From Halobacteriales archaeon YIM A00013 (GTDB taxonomy: Archaea > Halobacteriota > Halobacteria > Halobacteriales > Haloarculaceae): a stretch of 64,000 bases of DNA. The stretch lies in assembly GCA_025041195.1 (NCBI GenBank), contig JAKCFM010000001.1:1364001-1428000 (forward strand), given 5' to 3'. The position numbers and the translations under genes are program-made. Below, piece by piece: positions 22,692-31,932 of this stretch. The notes below the pieces were generated by a model. It was not told the origin of the DNA. It did no database searches and worked only from the letters and a program-made list of their open reading frames with translations. Within the stretch, counting starts at the first letter, position 1, and each line of letters begins with the position of its first letter.

Positions 22692-22768
22692 GGGCGCTTA
22701 GCTCAGCCTGGACTTAGAGTGCTTGGCTTCGGACCAAGTTGTCGGGGGTTCAAATCCCTCAGCGCCCG
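22692..22768 (+). tRNA. tRNA-Arg (anticodon TCG)
   Basis: A full cloverleaf is visible. The acceptor stem GGGCGCT pairs with AGCGCCC (22761-22767), with discriminator G at 22768. The D arm is GCTC/GAGT, and the anticodon arm CTTGG/CCAAG has loop CTTCGGA, giving anticodon TCG. The T arm is GGGGG TTCAAAT CCCTC. Anticodon TCG decodes CGA (Arg). No CCA is encoded and there is no intron. The last 21 bases recur twice downstream. Confidence 0.93.
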
Positions 22769-22960
22769 TGGAGCGAGGAACGCAGTGAGGAGCGAACTGG
22801 CACTGCGGGATTTGAAGTAAGGAGCGGCTTTGCTACGATTGTAGTTCAAATCCCTCAGCGCCCGTGGAGCGAGGAACGCAGTGAGGAGCGAACTGGCACT
22901 GCTGGATTTGAAGTAAGGAGCAGCTCTGCTGCGACTGTAGTTCAAATCCCTCAGCGCCCG
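22748..22960 (+). repeat. tandem 96-bp repeat carrying the tRNA-Arg 3' end
   Basis: The terminal 21 bases of the tRNA (22748-22768) recur exactly at 22844-22864 and 22940-22960, with a period of exactly 96 bp. The two intervening 96-bp units differ at about five positions. Each unit also carries an inverted copy of the T-arm sequence (GGATTTGAA at about 22808-22817 and 22904-22912) that could pair with the following TTCAAATCC. The layout looks like multiple att sites left by repeated integration or recombination at the tRNA gene, followed by tandem duplication. Confidence 0.8.
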
Positions 22961-23219
22961 TCCGATTTTCGAACAGTTCAATTCCAACAGCAGTTGGTGC
23001 TGTCGTGCGGTTTGCTACATCCAATGTCGGTAGTACGGAGCTTCATCAATGCGTCTGTTGTCTCTGCGATTCATTCAGACAGGATCGGTAGCAGTTTTCA
23101 CTGCATGAGCTGGACAGACGCACAAGAGATGCAGCTCGGCCCGTGGAGTACGACCCACACTGTAACACTACTCGAAACTTGGTTATAAATCAGTTTCGCG
23201 CCATGTTACAGCATGGGTG
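22961..23219. other. intergenic region downstream of tRNA repeats
   Basis: No convincing gene. A TATA-like GGTTATAAATC lies at about 23181-23191, roughly 30 bases before the small HTH gene that follows. Confidence 0.4.
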
Positions 23220-23399: not shown

Positions 23400-23626
23400 G
23401 GTCCGATGCGACGACGGATCAGAGGAGAATCGTCCACAGCAGATGGTTTCAGTAATATAGAGTCACCATCCGGGATCTACGCCAGCTCCTGTAATCAATT
23501 TTGAACGAGATCAACCATCGTATTTGATCACGGCTGCAGTGGCTTCGCCCGTAATGAATGCCTCACCGATCCCTGTACGGCAGTAGTTCGATAGCGATCC
23601 AACCCACCGCTCGCCGAACAGTCCAG

Positions 23627-23638
23627 AATATTTATATC
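23627..23638 (+). promoter_or_regulatory. TATA-like box of the H-NOX operon
   Basis: TTTATAT at 23631-23637 is centred 28 bases before ATG 23662, the start of a 37-codon frame whose stop overlaps the H-NOX start. The spacing fits a leaderless transcript that begins at 23662 and not at the H-NOX gene itself. Confidence 0.5.
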
Positions 23639-23661
23639 AGATGGTTTCACAATGTGGAGCC

Positions 23662-23775
23662 ATGTCCACTCAGCGCCGACCACGGGTTGACCAGTCGTTA
23701 CGATGGACTGTGCCGGACGCCACCAGCAGCCTGTCTCGCCCAACATGGGAACTGGCTCTCACAGCGAGCGTCTGA
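23662..23775 (+). CDS. 37-residue leader ORF coupled to the H-NOX gene
   Basis: ATG 23662 opens a 37-codon frame (MSTQRRPRVDQSLRW...) that ends with TGA at 23773-23775, overlapping the H-NOX ATG at 23775 (TGATG). It starts 28 bases after a TATA-like box. The peptide is basic at its N-terminus with several Trp and Ser residues and has no recognised domain. It may be a small protein or serve only to bring ribosomes to the overlapping start. Confidence 0.4.
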   Translation: MSTQRRPRVDQSLRWTVPDATSSLSRPTWELALTASV

Positions 23776-24326
23776 TGCACGGAATCGTTCTGAAAGGGTT
23801 CAAGGATTTCGTGATTGAGCGGTTTGACCGTGAGACCTGGCGCGCAATCCAGGCGGATGCGGGCCTTGAGGGAAAACTCTACGTCCCAGTGACGGAGTAT
23901 CCGGACGATGAGGTCAGAGCGTTGCTCAAGGCTGCCGTTTCAATCAGCAACACGCCCGCTAACGAACTTCTCGAAGCGTTTGGTGAGTTTCTGCTCCCAT
24001 CGTTGCTCGAAACCTACGGCGTGCACGTTGATGACCAGTGGAGTGCGCTCGAACTCATCGCCAACGTCGAGGAGTATATCCACACCTCGCTCCGCGCGAA
24101 AGCCGTCGCCGCGTACACGCCACCGCAGCTCCAATCCGACTGGATTGACGACTCGAACGTCCGAATCGTCTATCGCTCAGAACGGACGCTTTGTGCGTTC
24201 GCGCGCGGATTGATCAGTGGCATCGGAACCCATCGCGGAGAACAACTCACTATCGAGGAACGGGCGTGTATGCACAACGGTGACCCACAGTGTGTGCTCG
24301 TCGTCAGCCGACGCCACACGCCCTGA
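23775..24326 (+). CDS. H-NOX (heme-NO/O2-binding) sensor protein
   Basis: A 183-residue stand-alone heme sensor. MHGIVLKGFKDFV matches the H-NOX start. The proximal heme ligand is His103 (EEYIHTSLR), and Tyr133-x-Ser135-x-Arg137 (YRSER) is the invariant propionate-binding motif. A proline pair at 116-117 sits where the heme-distorting proline lies in known H-NOX proteins, and the His-to-YxSxR spacing agrees with the family. Such proteins bind NO, and some also O2. Neighbouring chemotaxis genes suggest it reports gas levels to the transducer or CheA. ATG 23745 is an alternative start; 23775 matches the family. Confidence 0.85.
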   Translation: MHGIVLKGFKDFVIERFDRETWRAIQADAGLEGKLYVPVTEYPDDEVRALLKAAVSISNTPANELLEAFGEFLLPSLLETYGVHVDDQWSALELIANVEEYIHTSLRAKAVAAYTPPQLQSDWIDDSNVRIVYRSERTLCAFARGLISGIGTHRGEQLTIEERACMHNGDPQCVLVVSRRHTP

Positions 24327-24424
24327 TCGGTCGCCAAGTGGCCGAATCGAACCCACAGATATTCCAAGTTCTAAGAAGTACAATTTGATTAAAATTATTC
24401 TCACTTAATGTAAAGATGTGACAA

Positions 24425-24434
24425 GGTTTATAAC
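24425..24434 (+). promoter_or_regulatory. TATA-like box of the chemotaxis operon
   Basis: TTTATAA at 24427-24433 predicts initiation near 24456. This is downstream of ATG 24447 and 6 bases before ATG 24462, so it decides for the latter as the transducer start. It also implies that the chemotaxis operon can be transcribed separately from the H-NOX gene. Confidence 0.5.
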
Positions 24435-24461
24435 ACATCGTTGTGAATGCTCCTTCCAATC

Positions 24462-25973
24462 ATGGGACTGCCCGGTACAGCACGAATTGGGTACCACCAC
24501 AGGGTATCGCTCGCCGTCTGTGGTGGGATAGTGGTGGTGGGGGCGATTCCGGTCGTAGTGACGGGGACAGTCAATCGGGAGTTGATCGCCGCCGCCGCCG
24601 GTGGAACAGCAATCGGTGGGCTGATCGGACTGGTCGGGCTCGTCCACCTGATGGGACAGATCGGCGGGCTGTTATCGGACGTCGATGCGGACGCTGATCC
24701 GTCAGTGTTCAGCCCGACAGCCGAACAGTCGGGACTCGTTGGTCGAATCGCCACCCACTGTATGACACTCCAAAGGCTTCAACGCGAAACGACGGCGATC
24801 GAACGGACCGCGATGTCGTATCGACGGGCAATCGAGGAGACAAACAGCACCGAGATGACGCCCCACTTAGACACTGCCGTTGAACCAGAACCGCTTGCTG
24901 GGCTTGGAACGGTAATCAACACCGCGTTTAACGATCTCGAAGCACGAATTGGCGAGCTAACGTCGTTTGCGACTGAAGTCGCAACGTACGGCCAGGAACT
25001 CCGGATGAGCAGCGAGGAGCTTCACGACGGAAGTCAACAGGTGACTGAAACAATCCAGGAAATCTCCGACAACGCACACAGACAACACCAGGAGCTTGAA
25101 ACGGTTGCCGTCGAGATGGAGGCGTTCTCGACGACGGTCGATGAGATTGCTGACGCCGCCACCGACGTGGCAGCGCTCTCCACTCGAACGGTTGAAACGG
25201 GCCAGAGCGGCCGAGAGTCCGCACACACGGCGATTGAGGGGATGCACCAGATCGAAGCCGAAGCAACGGAGACGATCGAAGAGATCGAAGCGCTTACAAC
25301 AGCCGTTGAACAGATCGACGAGTTGATAGATTTCATCGCCGAGATCGCTGAGCAGACGAACATGCTGGCGCTGAACGCGAACATTGAGGCGTCGCGCGCT
25401 GGCGAAGCCGGCGATGGATTTGGGGCTGTTGCCAGCGAGATCAAAGCGCTGGCCGAGCGGACCAAAGACGCTGCCACTGACATCGAAGATCGGCTGGCCG
25501 AGATTCAGCACCGAACCGACCGGACGGTCACCGAGGTGGAAGCCACAAGCGAGCGGATCGCAGCGAATGCCGATGCCATCGAAAACGCATTGACAGCGCT
25601 CGATGAGATCGCTGCGCTCGCGCAGGAAACGAACGACGGCGTCCAGTCGATTCGCCAGATGACAGCACAGGAGCTCGAAACCACCCAGGAGATAGCCGAC
25701 GTGGTTGACCGGACGGCACAAACGGCTGCCTCCATTGGCGAAGAGACCACGGAAGAGTCTGAAACCGTCGTTGCGGCGGCACAGGCACAGACGGCCGCGC
25801 TCGATCAGATCGCCGATAGCGCTGGACAGCTCGCAGAGCGGGCCTCCCGACTGAGCTCACTGCTGGGGTCGGTAACCCCAGCGTCGGATTCGAACGGATT
25901 CGAACCCGAGGGGCCGCCATCCACAGACGCAGCACCGTCTGACGATCAGACTACCCTTGAGAACTCTCACTGA
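24462..25973 (+). CDS. methyl-accepting chemotaxis transducer without extracellular domain
   Basis: A 503-residue transducer. Two adjacent hydrophobic helices (about residues 15-40 and 48-72) are separated by only a few residues, so there is no extracellular ligand-binding domain. A HAMP-like/linker region follows (about 75-165), then a long coiled coil with the signalling hairpin [20 protein letters not shown] (about residues 302-321) and [15 protein letters not shown]. Gln/Glu pairs in the flanking helices are potential methylation sites. Signals could reach it from the cytoplasm, for example through the H-NOX protein. The stop overlaps the cheW start (TGATG). Confidence 0.88.
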
Positions 25974-26470
25974 TGAGCCAGTCACGATCCGACGACGCCG
26001 ATGCCATCGCTCGTAAACACCGCGTCGAATTCGTTCACGTTCGGATCGACACCGAACGATGGGCGATCGAACGCGGACGCGTCCGCCGGCTCGTTCGAAC
26101 GCCACAGCTCACGCGAATTCCCCGGGCACCTGCACCGATTGCTGGCGCAACGGAACAGAGTGGAACCGTAACGGCAGTGATCGATGGACGCACCCTCTGT
26201 GGAGCTGACGCGGGGAGAGGCCAGCAAGCGGATGGCACACTCGTCGTGTTCGAGGGGCCACAGCTCGAACAGCGAACCGGACTGCTTGTCGATCACGTGC
26301 AGGGGATCGAATCACATTCCGTCGATCAGATCTCTGCAGTGGCGGACGAACGGCCACAGAGCCCTTCGTACCACTGTGCCCGCATTGACGAGACCGCGTG
26401 GGTTCTCGATCCGAATCGACTGATAGACGCCATCAGCACTGGCAACGCCAGTGTGACTTCCGACCAGTAA
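25973..26470 (+). CDS. cheW: CheW-like chemotaxis adaptor
   Basis: A 165-residue protein with the CheW beta-barrel pattern: IDTERWAIERGRVRRLVR, TRIPRAPAPIAGATEQSGTVTAVIDGR, LVVFEGPQLEQRTGLLVDHVQGI and WVLDPNRLI. Adaptors of this type join the transducer tip to CheA. It is more divergent than typical CheW, with a long insertion after the central strand (GADAGRGQQADG). It is coupled to the transducer by a TGATG overlap, and cheY begins one base after its stop. Confidence 0.82.
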   Translation: MSQSRSDDADAIARKHRVEFVHVRIDTERWAIERGRVRRLVRTPQLTRIPRAPAPIAGATEQSGTVTAVIDGRTLCGADAGRGQQADGTLVVFEGPQLEQRTGLLVDHVQGIESHSVDQISAVADERPQSPSYHCARIDETAWVLDPNRLIDAISTGNASVTSDQ

Positions 26471-26471
26471 C

Positions 26472-26840
26472 ATGACTGTACGAATCTTGCTCGTTGACGA
26501 CTCGGTGTACATGCGCCGACGGATCGCCAGTGCCTTGCCAGAAGCCGCCTACGAGGTGGTGGCTGAGGCTCCAAACGGTGCTGATGCAGTCCGCAAGTAC
26601 AAACAACACGCCGATGCGATCGATGTCGTCTTGATGGATATCGTCATGGCCCAGGCAAACGGAATCAAAGCCACGGCCGCTATCAAACAGCTCGATCAGT
26701 CCGTCAGGATCGTTATGTGCACGAGTGTTGGCCAGCGGGCAAAGATGAAGCTGGCCGCCCGTGCGGGCGCTGATGGCTATCTCATCAAGCCGTTCGCCGA
26801 TGAAGACATCGTCGATGCGATCGATCAGGTTCACGCATGA
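26472..26840 (+). CDS. cheY: CheY-type response regulator
   Basis: A 122-residue single receiver domain. The acidic pair D9-D10 (LLVDD), phosphoacceptor D56 (VVLMDIVM), the switch residue T84 (VMCTS) and K106 (LIKPF) are all present. It should accept phosphate from the CheA encoded next to it and signal towards the archaellar motor or a local output. Its stop overlaps the cheA start by 4 bp (ATGA). Confidence 0.9.
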   Translation: MTVRILLVDDSVYMRRRIASALPEAAYEVVAEAPNGADAVRKYKQHADAIDVVLMDIVMAQANGIKATAAIKQLDQSVRIVMCTSVGQRAKMKLAARAGADGYLIKPFADEDIVDAIDQVHA

Positions 26841-29098
26841 GTGACGATGAAACGCTCCGCAGAGAGGTGATCGAGCTCACTGCAGCGCTCCACGATGGAC
26901 TGCTTGCCATAGAAGACGACGGCGATGAGACCGCGATTGCAGAGCTGTTCCGGGCAACGCACACGCTGAAAGGAACGTGTTCGATGGGCGGACTCGAAGC
27001 AGCGGCTGGCGCCGCGCACGCGCTCGAAGAACTGTTCGAAGCCATTCGCGAGGACGCTATCGAGCCGACGACCCCACTCGTTGACGCGGCGCTTGATGGG
27101 GTCGATGCCATCGCAGCCGTCGTCGACGCCCCCGATATCCAGTCGGCGGTTGCGCCAGCCCAGGCCACTTCCGCGCTGCAATCGCAGCTTTCGGAGCAGT
27201 TGGATGCTCGTCCAGGCGCCACTGCAACGGACGACACGGATACGCCACCCCATAGCTCGACGGAGACGAACGAGCAGACGCAACCACCCGACGAAGATCC
27301 GTTTGTCTGGGTCAGCGAGACGCCAGCAACCGACATAAAAACGCTCGAAACAGAGCTTGAAGGGGTGTCATTCGGGGAGTTCGATGAGCAGGACGAGCTA
27401 AGCATTCGGGAGCTCCTCGAAATTGAGCCAGAGACGGAACCGGACGAGAATTCCGACGGCGGTGCTACTGATACTGGGAGTGCAGACGACGATCGCCCTG
27501 GTGAGAGAGCTGACGATGGGAGCCCCACTGAGGTGGCGCCAACCGACGCTGATACCGAGTCTATCGACGCCGCCGGAGATCCATTCGTCTGGGTGTCCGA
27601 TGATGCACCTGCCGGAGCTGATCTCGAAGCCCTCGAAGCTGAGCTTGCGTCGGTTTCGTTCGGGCCGTTCGACGACGAAGACGTGCTATCGATCCAGGAG
27701 TTGCTCGAAATCGAACCGGAAGAAAAGACCGACACCGACGCGTCTGCCCTCGATTCGGTTACGCTACCGACGGCAGAGGAGACACAGGACCACACATCCG
27801 AGCTCGCTCAACCGGCATCGTTCGAGCCCGATCCCGAAACAAAAGCGTTTGCCGACAGATTCGAAGCGCTGTTCGAAGCAGAGACCGATGGTGATGTTCG
27901 CGCAGTCGGGACGATCGAGGAGAGCAGTCTGGAGCTGCCCACACAGTCCACTCGCGAGGAGGCCATGCAGTCGATTCACTCGGTGACTGTCGACGTGACG
28001 ACTGCAGACGACCTGCTAGCGCTCGCCGAAAAACTGTCGATGGTCTCGCTGTCGCTCGAAGCGGAGCTCGATACTGACGACGATGCGCTCGAATCATTGT
28101 TGGAAACCCTCTCATCGGTCGAGACTGACGTGCTCCAGACGGTTCTGAAGCTTCGATTGCTTGAGTTTGGTGACGTGGTCGATCGACTGCCACGGGTTGT
28201 TCGTGACATTGCGAACGCACAGGACAAACAGATCACCCTCGATATCGAGGGTAACGACGCGACGTTCGATCGCCGAATCGCAGAACAGGTCAGAGAGCCG
28301 CTATTGCACCTGGTGCGTAACGCTGCCGACCACGGGATCGAATCACCGTCTACACGTAAGTCGCTCGGAAAGCCACCTACTGGAACGGTCACCGTTCGGG
28401 CCAAACAGATCCGAAACGGCGCTCTCATCGAAGTTGAAGATGATGGGGCCGGTATTGATCCCGAGGCCGTGCTTGACGCCGCGGTCGAAGCGGGTGTGTG
28501 TGCTGCGGACGAAGTTGCCGATTACGACCGGTCTGAAGCGCTTGAACTCCTGTTCCATCACGGGCTTTCGACCGCGTCGTCAGTCACGGACGTTAGCGGT
28601 CGCGGCGTGGGGATGGAGATCGTCGATCGAGTGTGTACGTCGCTCGATGGCTCCGTAGAGATCGAGAGCACTCCTGGCTCCGGAACGACGGTGCAACTTC
28701 ACGTCCCCATTACGGCAGCGATGGCGCCGCTGTTGTTCGTCTCGGCCGGTGCCGAGCGGTTCGCGATTCCACAGTCAGCAGTCGAAGGCGTGGCGAGAAA
28801 ACGACACAGTGAGGATGGACACACCCCACCGTATTCGCGCTCCGACGGCGAAGAGTATCGACTGTGTAGTCTTCACGAGCGATTCGATGTCCCACGGACG
28901 CGGACAACGACGAGCAACATCGTCTGGCTGCTTGCCGATATCGATCGCGTTGGGATCGAATGCGACCGGGTGATTGGCACACGGCAGGCGGTGGTGACAC
29001 CGTACGGACCGCCAGTTGATTCGATACAGGGAATCAGCGGGGCAACGATCGAGGAAAGCGGCGACGTTATCAACGTGATCGATGCGACGACGATCTAA
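26837..29098 (+). CDS. cheA: CheA chemotaxis histidine kinase with duplicated linker motif
   Basis: A 753-residue kinase. P1 Hpt domain (1-105) with phosphoacceptor His42 (ATHTLKGTCSMGG). A long acidic linker (106-375) follows in place of a clear P2. P3 dimerisation (about 376-465), P4 ATPase (about 466-625; N box HLVRN at 491-495, EDDGAGID, GRGVGMEIV) and a C-terminal CheW-like P5 (from about 630). The linker holds two copies of a roughly 45-residue unit (residues 154-198 and 248-295) of the form DPFVWVS...LE-EL--VSFG-FD--D-LSI-ELLEIEPE. These may dock CheY, CheC or another partner. It is translationally coupled to cheY. Confidence 0.92.
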   Translation: MSDDETLRREVIELTAALHDGLLAIEDDGDETAIAELFRATHTLKGTCSMGGLEAAAGAAHALEELFEAIREDAIEPTTPLVDAALDGVDAIAAVVDAPDIQSAVAPAQATSALQSQLSEQLDARPGATATDDTDTPPHSSTETNEQTQPPDEDPFVWVSETPATDIKTLETELEGVSFGEFDEQDELSIRELLEIEPETEPDENSDGGATDTGSADDDRPGERADDGSPTEVAPTDADTESIDAAGDPFVWVSDDAPAGADLEALEAELASVSFGPFDDEDVLSIQELLEIEPEEKTDTDASALDSVTLPTAEETQDHTSELAQPASFEPDPETKAFADRFEALFEAETDGDVRAVGTIEESSLELPTQSTREEAMQSIHSVTVDVTTADDLLALAEKLSMVSLSLEAELDTDDDALESLLETLSSVETDVLQTVLKLRLLEFGDVVDRLPRVVRDIANAQDKQITLDIEGNDATFDRRIAEQVREPLLHLVRNAADHGIESPSTRKSLGKPPTGTVTVRAKQIRNGALIEVEDDGAGIDPEAVLDAAVEAGVCAADEVADYDRSEALELLFHHGLSTASSVTDVSGRGVGMEIVDRVCTSLDGSVEIESTPGSGTTVQLHVPITAAMAPLLFVSAGAERFAIPQSAVEGVARKRHSEDGHTPPYSRSDGEEYRLCSLHERFDVPRTRTTTSNIVWLLADIDRVGIECDRVIGTRQAVVTPYGPPVDSIQGISGATIEESGDVINVIDATTI

Positions 29099-29104
29099 CC
29101 ACGC

Positions 29105-30346
29105 ATGAAACTTGACCTACCCAGACTGGAGTCGGTGTACGAGATGGCACACGACGGCGCCCAACTGGCCGCAACACGATTTACGAACAGTCTGGAAATC
29201 GACACACGTGTTCGAAACACACGGATTGCCTTCGGGACTCCCCCAACGTCCGCAGCCGATGAACGATCGGTCGCCGTGGCTATCGATCTCGATGGCTTTC
29301 TCGATGGTCGGTGTTTCGTCGAATTCGACGAATCGATCGTGGCAACGATCCAACGACGCCTCGTTGGTGGGCGGTTTGACGAACCCGATCCGGCGCTCGG
29401 ACGGAGCGCACTCCGTGAGGTTGGGGCGATGCTCAACAACGGCTTCGTTGACGGCTGGGCGGACGCACTCGATGCCGACATCGACGTCTCACCGCCATCG
29501 ATCGAATCCATTGGTACCCCCCAGAGACAGGTTACAGCCTCTGAACCACTCGAACTGTCGTTCTGGAGCCAAATCGACACGGTCGATCACAGCCGAGCGT
29601 TTACACTCTGTTTCGTCCCAACTGCTGACTGTGTGGAACGGCTTGTGAGCACCGATGCTGGCGAGCGTGCGATCGAAGCGAGCGCCCTGCGTGGTCTCGA
29701 CACGCTGCTTGAGAACGGCGTTGCATCGATGTCCGACACCGTCACTGCAATGACTGGAATCGAGGTTGAAACGCCCACAAACCGACTGGAATTCATCTCG
29801 ATCGATCGCCTTCCCGCCCGCGTTTCGAACGGTCGATATCGAAGTGTAGCGTTCAGTTTCCACGATACACCTAGTGGCTATCTGCTCTTTTTGTTCGACC
29901 ACGACGGTGCCAGCGCACTCGTCCGAGAGCTGTTCGGAGAACCGTCGCACAATGGGGCGATGGCACGCGATGCGATTCAGGAACTGGCCAACGTGATGAC
30001 CAGCAGTTTGCTCGACGGGTGGGCAAACGTCCTTGAGACGACGATCGATCATTCCACACCCGCCTACACGGACGACATGGGTGCTGCCGTGATCGATCCG
30101 CTGGTGGTTGGACTGAGCGAGCGCCAGGAGTTCGCGTTTGTCTTCTCCTTTCAGTTGCGTGCGATCGATACGTCGATCGAGCTGGATGTCTACACCATTC
30201 CTGACGAGGCCGATCTCCTCAGGGCGCTCCGTCTCCTCGAAACGAAGCCCATCGAACCCGTTGCGCAGCCACCATCGTTCACGCCGACAGAGGCGACGCC
30301 CACGGCGTTTGCCGTCGGAGACCTACTCGAATCCGATCATCCATGA
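29105..30346 (+). CDS. cheC: double CheC-type CheY-phosphate phosphatase
   Basis: A 413-residue protein about twice the usual CheC length, consisting of two CheC domains. The CheC active-site pattern D/S-x3-E-x2-N-x22-P is perfect in the last helix pair (D289, E293, N296, P319). The equivalent site in the first domain has S101, E105 and P131 but Ala108 in place of Asn. The other sites (for example 193-200) have lost both Glu and Asn. It should dephosphorylate CheY-P with one active site. It follows cheA by 6 bp, and its stop overlaps cheD. Confidence 0.82.
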   Translation: MKLDLPRLESVYEMAHDGAQLAATRFTNSLEIDTRVRNTRIAFGTPPTSAADERSVAVAIDLDGFLDGRCFVEFDESIVATIQRRLVGGRFDEPDPALGRSALREVGAMLNNGFVDGWADALDADIDVSPPSIESIGTPQRQVTASEPLELSFWSQIDTVDHSRAFTLCFVPTADCVERLVSTDAGERAIEASALRGLDTLLENGVASMSDTVTAMTGIEVETPTNRLEFISIDRLPARVSNGRYRSVAFSFHDTPSGYLLFLFDHDGASALVRELFGEPSHNGAMARDAIQELANVMTSSLLDGWANVLETTIDHSTPAYTDDMGAAVIDPLVVGLSERQEFAFVFSFQLRAIDTSIELDVYTIPDEADLLRALRLLETKPIEPVAQPPSFTPTEATPTAFAVGDLLESDHP

Positions 30347-30849
30347 CCAACGCACTTGAAGACGTTCTAGCAGACGAATCAGACGAAACGCTCGTCCGAG
30401 CAGGAGAGTACCGTGTCGTACCGTCCGGAGCGTCCCTGTACGCCTACGGCCTCGGGGCAAGCGTCGCGATCGCGATCTGTGGACCCGACTCGATGGGCGG
30501 ACTTGCACATGCGCTGCTATCCCGCCCAGACGGCGCCATGCGCCGTGGTGCAGGGACCTTCGTTGAGTCTGCGATCCGTGAGATGTTGCGAGAACTGATC
30601 GAGGCGGGCGCAGGCTACGGCTCGTGCGAGGCGAAGCTCGCCGGGGGCGCGACGGTGTTTCAGCTTGAGGGACTCGATCCAGATACCGGCGGGCAAACGG
30701 TGGCAACCGCCCGCCAAGAGCTCTCAGCTCTGGACGTTCCCGTCGTCGCCACGGCGGTCGGTGGCCAGCGCGGCCGGTGTGTTGCCTTCGACACCGCAGC
30801 AGATGAGCTCACCGTGGCCACCAGTGATGGCGAAACAACCCAGCTTTGA
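30343..30849 (+). CDS. cheD: CheD-like protein lacking the catalytic cysteine
   Basis: A 168-residue CheD-family protein. CheD deamidates transducer glutamines and binds CheC, raising its phosphatase activity. The core LGASVAIAICGPDSMGGLAHALL aligns with the family pattern LG-S-C-V...GG-(M/L)-AH-(I/V)-(M/L)-LP. His56 is present, but Ser40 stands where the catalytic Cys is expected. Deamidase activity is therefore doubtful, while CheC binding may remain. It overlaps the cheC stop by 4 bp and ends the operon; no cheB or cheR is in the window. Confidence 0.8.
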   Translation: MTNALEDVLADESDETLVRAGEYRVVPSGASLYAYGLGASVAIAICGPDSMGGLAHALLSRPDGAMRRGAGTFVESAIREMLRELIEAGAGYGSCEAKLAGGATVFQLEGLDPDTGGQTVATARQELSALDVPVVATAVGGQRGRCVAFDTAADELTVATSDGETTQL

Positions 30850-30903: not shown

Positions 30904-31932
30904 ATGGCCATGGGTATCGAGACAGGGCTGTTCGGCCACGTGCTGTTGGTGGTCGTGACGGCACTGTTAATCTGGGTTGGGAGTGGGTGGCTTGAGCGTG
31001 GCTCCGAAGAACTGGCCGGTCATTACGGCCTCCCTGCAGTGGTACAGGGATCGGTCGTCGTCGCGGTTGGCTCTAGCTTTCCCGAGCTGGTGACGGTGAT
31101 CGTCACTGCCCTCTCAGGAGTCCCGGATATGGGCGTCGGAGGAATTGTTGGCTCTGCGGTGTTCAACGTACTCGTCATTCCAGCAGTTGCTGGGCTGGCA
31201 ACGGCATCCGCAATTGAGTCGAGTCGGACGATCGTCTATAAGGAAGCCCAGTTCTACATGATAGCGGTCTCTGCACTGATCGTGACGTTCGCGCTGGCAG
31301 TGATCTACGAGCCCGTCACCACCAGCGGTGAGCTGATCGGAACGATCACCCGTCCGCTCGCGTTGATCCCGCTCGCGTTGTACGGGCTCTACCTGTTTAT
31401 TCAGTACCAGGATGTGAGTGATGCAGCCCAACCCACGGAGCCGACCGACAGTGTCCCTCGAATGTGGGGGCTGCTGGCGGGCGGCCTGGCTGTTATTCTC
31501 GTTGCCGTCCATCAGCTCGTTGCGAGCGTCGAATCGCTCAGCACAGCGTTTGGCGTCCCGGAGTTCATGGCCGGCGTGACGATCATAGCCGCTGCGACGA
31601 GTCTGCCGGACACACTCGTCAGCGTGCGCTCAGCGACGAACGGCAACGGCTCGACCAGTCTGGGAAACGTCCTCGGCTCGAATACGTTCGATCTGCTCGT
31701 GGCGATCCCGATCGGCGTGTTAATCGCCGGTGGAATCGTGGTGAACTTCGCCGTGGCTGCACCGATGATGGGCGTGTTGACCGTCGCGACAATTTTGCTG
31801 TTTACCGTCTTGCGAACGGAACTAACGCTGACGACCACAGAGTCTCTGGTGTTGCTGGGTGCGTATTTCGTCTTCGTCGGCTGGGTGGCAGCCGAATCAG
31901 TCGGGCTCTCGCACCTGATCAGGGGTGCGTAG
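30904..31932 (+). CDS. sodium/calcium exchanger-family (CaCA) cation antiporter
   Basis: A 342-residue membrane protein with about 10 helices and the two inverted alpha-repeats of the CaCA superfamily: AVGSSFPELVTVIVTAL with VGSAVFNVLVIP (about residues 57-100) and AAATSLPDTLVSVRSA with LGSNTFDLLVAIP (about 228-270). The acidic residues in these repeats bind the exchanged cation. It would export Ca2+ (or another cation) against Na+ or H+. Its 3' end overlaps the convergent uridine kinase gene by 14 bp. Confidence 0.87.
   Translation: MAMGIETGLFGHVLLVVVTALLIWVGSGWLERGSEELAGHYGLPAVVQGSVVVAVGSSFPELVTVIVTALSGVPDMGVGGIVGSAVFNVLVIPAVAGLATASAIESSRTIVYKEAQFYMIAVSALIVTFALAVIYEPVTTSGELIGTITRPLALIPLALYGLYLFIQYQDVSDAAQPTEPTDSVPRMWGLLAGGLAVILVAVHQLVASVESLSTAFGVPEFMAGVTIIAAATSLPDTLVSVRSATNGNGSTSLGNVLGSNTFDLLVAIPIGVLIAGGIVVNFAVAAPMMGVLTVATILLFTVLRTELTLTTTESLVLLGAYFVFVGWVAAESVGLSHLIRGA

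Follow-up and report, generated by a model that had tools for sequence, protein, structure and literature searches.

The locus described here lies in a window of 64,000 nucleotides, the whole stretch of DNA that was analysed, from the genome of Halobacteriales archaeon YIM A00013, and all coordinates are positions in that window. A six-frame ORF list and a Pfam scan confirmed the presence of an H-NOX gene followed by genes for a transducer, CheW, CheY, CheA, CheC and CheD, with the operon ending at 30849. The genes and the elements associated with them are as follows.

23628-23637, forward strand: TATA-like element TTTATAT, putative promoter of the small ORF/H-NOX transcript, as read in the sequence
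23662-23775, forward strand: small ORF of 37 codons, coding or leader, open in the window and in the relative YIM 93972
23775-24326, forward strand: H-NOX (HNOB), stand-alone, 183 aa; Pfam, PDB sequence search, AF2, Foldseek and residue table
24427-24433, forward strand: TATA-like element TTTATAA, putative promoter of the transducer/che transcript, in a block conserved in YIM 93972
24462-25973 (longest ORF from 24447), forward strand: transducer with MCP signalling domain; PF00015 (MCPsignal), E 4e-33, and TM scan
25973-26470, forward strand: CheW coupling protein; PF01584, E 2.5e-16
26472-26840, forward strand: CheY response regulator; PF00072, E 4e-26, and alignment
26837-29098, forward strand: CheA kinase with Hpt, HATPase and CheW domains; Pfam, alignment and membership of the H-NOX-linked CheA clade
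29105-30346, forward strand: CheC, double-length; PF04509/PF13690 and alignment
30343-30849, forward strand: CheD, predicted pseudo-enzyme; PF03975, E 2.9e-16, and alignments

CheW, CheY, CheA, the double-length CheC and CheD each score above the respective Pfam cut-off, and gene junctions overlap or nearly touch, with ATGA overlaps at MCP/CheW, CheY/CheA and CheC/CheD. The initial annotation had described a transducer and a full CheW-CheY-CheA-CheC-CheD set behind H-NOX, with neither CheB nor CheR, and this inventory stands: every gene was found, and CheB and CheR are missing both here and in the rest of the genome. The gene for a Na+/Ca2+ exchanger located downstream (30904-31932) was considered as a further part of the system and rejected, because among the relatives just the closest one has it beside the operon.

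Transcription of H-NOX probably starts from a promoter separate from that of the che genes. The two TATA-like elements lie in blocks that are almost unchanged in the nearest relative, so that H-NOX may be transcribed apart from the che genes, and co-transcription is consequently not certain. The stretch from approximately 23612 to 23703 is nearly identical in YIM 93972 while the DNA further upstream is not, and the TTTATAA block is perfectly conserved there. Since this block precedes position 24462, the transducer is more likely to start at 24462 than at 24447. A scan for bacterial promoters and terminators gave matches no more than expected by chance. The stop codon of the small ORF overlaps the H-NOX start (TGATG), with the same overlap and open frame in YIM 93972, which makes this putatively coding ORF a possible leader or a possible means of translational coupling.

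That the first gene encodes a stand-alone H-NOX protein, with a proximal His103 and a characteristic motif at residues 133-137, had been read from the sequence alone and is confirmed by an HMM search of 23775-24326, which matches HNOB (PF07700, E 3.6e-31, 108.7 bits against a cut-off of 25.5), and by the presence of H103, Y133-x-S135-x-R137 and the proximal proline P117. The best PDB sequence matches are 2kii, 4u9b and 4u99, the nearest solved relatives being Shewanella oneidensis H-NOX. An H-NOX fold is also predicted by AF2 (pLDDT 81), with 4u99 as the best Foldseek match (TM 0.87, E 4e-14) and with H-NOX proteins or soluble guanylate cyclase as the only other matches among those shown. Both H103 and the Y-x-S-x-R motif are kept in every transducer-linked homologue examined.

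The distal O2-stabilising position was placed by reference to the known sequence of an O2-binding H-NOX. It is occupied by F142 in the window protein and by L, V, F, M, W or I in the haloarchaeal homologues, with Tyr in none of the 63 further proteins aligned. A distal Tyr marks O2-binding H-NOX according to a review, and its absence from the window protein and from the homologues examined favours NO over O2. Heme and NO binding are predicted, and the protein is probably an NO sensor, so that of the two gases proposed in the initial annotation NO is retained and O2 disfavoured. A primary role in O2 sensing, as in obligate anaerobes whose H-NOX-transducer fusions bind O2, seems distinctly unlikely. 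In its favour, having a transducer as partner is reminiscent of those fusions (review), other heme transducers mediate O2 taxis in haloarchaea (2022 survey) and a globin encoded next to the operon in relatives could handle O2. Against it, the distal Tyr is replaced in all haloarchaeal homologues examined and the organism has no archaellum with which to perform aerotaxis. Alternatively, the protein could be a redox sensor in which heme plays a minor part, as has been suggested for the heme-free H-NOX of Vibrio cholerae, since Cys140, Cys165 and Cys173 align with three zinc-site Cys of Shewanella H-NOX, E162 taking the position of the fourth ligand. However, this cluster is also kept in most haloarchaeal homologues, including those that lack the heme histidine, and may therefore be structural, and H103 and the pocket motif are present in all transducer-linked copies, which leaves the redox reading unlikely.

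The transducer is the sole protein with an MCP domain in the genome. Its two TM segments (residues 20-38 and from 46) are separated by a short loop and it has no outer domain, in line with the earlier description of a transducer devoid of an extracellular domain. The transducers beside H-NOX share this lack of an outer domain: the 19 that adjoin one, that of the window among them, show at most two TM segments, which lie close together. Three transducers of the same loci that do not adjoin H-NOX have TM segments approximately 270 residues apart and an outer domain. The strict methylation-site consensus has no match in the window transducer, but it is also missing from some relatives with CheR in their genomes, which makes its absence a weak sign. 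At one locus (L034:9980-10798), the protein adjoining H-NOX is a 272-aa coiled-coil protein that resembles a transducer without the signalling tip, and in which Pfam finds no MCP domain.

The full gene set (class A) recurs in 11 complete haloarchaeal loci from several genera, a conservation far beyond chance, which settles in the affirmative whether the arrangement extends to relatives. These loci come from the window genome, YIM 93972, Halocatena marina, three Haloferax-type genomes, two genomes of another family, Halorussus aquaticus, Salinigranum salinum and isolate LT46; an additional one, in Haloferax profundi, lies on a truncated contig and is outside the 11. H-NOX and the transducer are separate ORFs in all 11, and the order is rearranged to CheY-CheA-CheC-H-NOX-MCP-CheW-CheC-CheD in L035, L036, L117 and L119. 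A divergent truncated globin (PF01152), a member of a family that handles NO and O2, is encoded at the edge of each of the nine non-Halocatena class A loci examined, one of them on a truncated contig (L035, L036, L038-L041 and L117-L119), and there is no globin at the operon in Halocatena. Other haloarchaea commonly have H-NOX with a transducer only (class B), or H-NOX alone in a conserved housekeeping neighbourhood (class C). H103 is found in every class A and class B protein and is replaced by Tyr, Thr, Val, Ala, Arg or Ser in a clade of H-NOX-like proteins (L043, L044, L046, L048-L053, L055, L058, L060, L063, L067, L069, L073 and L075-L091), most of which stand alone near prs and ileS, Tyr being the substitute in 20; as judged from this residue, they may bind heme differently or not at all.

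Outside the haloarchaea, a family of the same phylum has an H-NOX of different sequence, with the conserved His, encoded between cheB and cheA in che operons that comprise MCP, CheW, CheY, CheX-like, CheB, H-NOX and CheA (L151, L153, L157 and L158, also L152 and L156). This is a separate case of an archaeal H-NOX coupled to a Che system. It bears on the possibility that H-NOX and the che operon are adjacent but functionally separate, the transducer sensing something else, as might be suspected from the promoter-like element that H-NOX has of its own and from haloarchaeal H-NOX genes that have no che neighbour. Such independence is highly improbable considering that the neighbourhood is kept across several genera and in this independent family, that the transducers beside H-NOX are sensor-less, and that H-NOX, MCP and CheA are lost or retained jointly in Halocatena, all three being present in three of the five genomes and none in the other two (one of which has a weak kinase-domain match only).

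CheY keeps the acidic pocket, the phospho-acceptor Asp and the Lys in alignments, and matches the CheY_Halo model NF041367 with an E-value of 1e-38, below the curated cut-off of that model. The class A CheAs split from other haloarchaeal CheAs with a support of 1.0, and in Haloferax and others the H-NOX-linked CheA coexists with a separate motility-cluster CheA. The linker of the window CheA contains an F-G-x-F-D motif twice, at aa 179 and 275 (27371-27415 and 27659-27703). The strict form of this motif, F-G-x-F-D...I-x-[ED]-L, occurs in the majority of class A CheAs but not in any of nine others, two of which have looser versions, and the repeated acidic motif is a possible docking site. The two acidic repeats, FGEFDEQDELSIREL and FGPFDDEDVLSIQEL, are typical of H-NOX-linked CheAs. 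In CheC, the C-terminal half keeps the phosphatase motif E-x2-N (ELAN), and the N-terminal half is without it (EVGA).

The Cys of the CheD motif G-L-G-[SA]-C is catalytic, and in three Halocatena genomes it is replaced by Ser (GLGASVAI, compared with GLGACVAI or GLGSC elsewhere), while the class A CheDs of other genera retain it. Together with the lack of CheR and CheB, this substitution means that covalent receptor modification appears to have been lost in Halocatena. In Bacillus subtilis, CheC binding by CheD counts for far more than its deamidase activity (PMC3513319), so that CheD can remain of use even as a pseudo-enzyme. The operon would also be a naturally occurring example of chemosensory signalling that has lost methylation-based adaptation and is still under selection.

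What this pathway controls is constrained by the rest of the genome (3.73 Mb, 96.5% complete), which encodes one H-NOX, one MCP-domain protein and one CheA (two CheA matches, in the same frame). The closest named relatives, YIM 93972 (Actinoarchaeum halophilum, whose H-NOX is 90% identical) and H. marina, are both filed under Halocatena by NCBI. CheF and CheR are absent from all five Halocatena genomes, the window genome included, and no archaellin match was found in any of the five, so that the gap is not an assembly accident. This agrees with a report that YIM 93972 forms hyphae and spores and that its clade has lost the archaellum and a PilB3-type pilus, in the text of which chemotaxis is not mentioned (PMC10067837). 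A complete Che core is therefore present in an organism that has no motility organelle, and motility as output, one of the options left by the initial annotation, was rejected for this organism, while the other option, some different output, fits. No output protein is encoded in the operon. Each Halocatena genome encodes one PilB-like ATPase, which can be regarded only as a candidate output machine because it is also present in the two genomes that lack the operon. On the input side, production of NO by the organism's own NirK is unsupported: no match to this nitrite reductase above cut-off was found in Halocatena genomes, so any NO would be external or come from another source.

These absences might also be read as signs that the operon is a decaying remnant of motility chemotaxis left after loss of the archaellum, for there is neither archaellin nor CheF, CheB and CheR are missing, the catalytic Cys of CheD has been lost and two congeners are devoid of H-NOX, MCP and CheA altogether. 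This is very unlikely in view of the fact that none of the seven genes is disrupted and all evolve under purifying selection, with dN/dS ratios of 0.06-0.33 that are similar to those of neighbouring genes (0.10 for CheD and 0.11 for H-NOX), and that CheA belongs to the H-NOX-linked clade, which coexists with a separate motility-cluster CheA in Haloferax and others.

We therefore consider it probable, with some confidence, that the operon specifies a chemosensory pathway for gas sensing whose receptor is split, H-NOX providing the input and CheY-P acting on a non-archaellar target. The initial proposal that a stand-alone H-NOX serves a compact Che system as its gas-sensing subunit is well supported by the conserved gene order, the sensor-less transducers, the kept heme His and the flanking globin in relatives. 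A point against the split receptor is that several haloarchaeal H-NOX genes that keep H103 lack an adjoining transducer. Sensing, ligand, H-NOX-transducer contact, kinase control and output are all parts of a scheme that we infer as follows. Cytosolic H-NOX would bind heme and, most likely, NO, and NO binding would change its contact with the sensor-less membrane transducer or with the CheA-CheW array, altering CheA autophosphorylation and hence the level of CheY-P, which CheC would remove to end the signal. Since the organism has no archaellum, the target of CheY-P would lie elsewhere and might be a pilus-type machine, cell-surface or hyphal/spore development, or another protein; non-motility outputs such as pili have been proposed in a 2022 survey of archaeal chemoreceptors. 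With neither receptor methylation nor deamidation, the Halocatena pathway should report the gas level itself, and not compare levels over time as in gradient sensing. A more specific version, in which an NO-responsive array without adaptation enzymes or motility organelle controls differentiation (hyphae/spores) or surface behaviour in filamentous haloarchaea, is put forward tentatively and is rather doubtful. If true, a chemotaxis machine would have become a developmental switch under the control of a gas. Two questions become testable in this organism: whether H-NOX lets archaea use NO as a signal, and what chemotaxis-type arrays do in non-swimming archaea. Its one transducer, one CheA and one H-NOX form an unusually simple array, in which no redundancy stands in the way of assigning input and output.

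Parts of this arrangement have precedents, H-NOX-transducer fusions and H-NOX/kinase pairs being already known. As in the H-NOX-MCP fusions of the Caldanaerobacter/Thermoanaerobacter and Clostridium type, H-NOX would feed a membrane transducer and then a Che pathway, but those are single polypeptides with an O2-binding distal Tyr, whereas the archaeal window encodes two proteins, without distal Tyr, in a dedicated operon. The H-NOX/HnoK pairs of Shewanella and Vibrio share with it a stand-alone H-NOX that is similar in sequence and fold and has the three zinc-site Cys; however, their kinase feeds c-di-GMP or quorum-sensing circuits, while the partners here are those of an MCP/CheA array. Haloarchaeal motility chemotaxis uses homologous CheW, CheY, CheA, CheC and CheD, but the window system has no CheB, CheR, CheF or archaellum, a CheA of a separate clade and a single transducer. 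The Methanosarcina che2 regions are likewise archaeal che clusters without CheF, although the species concerned have archaellum genes, and we know of no H-NOX in these regions. As in bacterial alternative-function chemosensory systems, the Che output would not be flagellar rotation, yet the present operon is archaeal, has a gas-sensor input and lacks an output enzyme. In the literature searched, which omits most subscription journals, we found no paper on archaeal H-NOX, in keeping with the statement in the initial annotation that no such archaeal chemotaxis system was known, and no description of a split H-NOX-driven Che operon as the sole chemosensory system of a non-motile archaeon.

The DNA upstream of the operon has features of its own. 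A tRNA-Arg gene (TCG) is followed, within 22692-22961, by a 96-nt tandem repeat that contains three exact copies of the 22-nt 3' end of the tRNA, which makes this region a possible integration site and a mobile-element origin conceivable. No matching exact copy of the tRNA-Arg end was found beyond the operon, GC is flat, and a plasmid search with CheA gave no close relative. The same type of repeat lies directly before H-NOX in YIM 93972.
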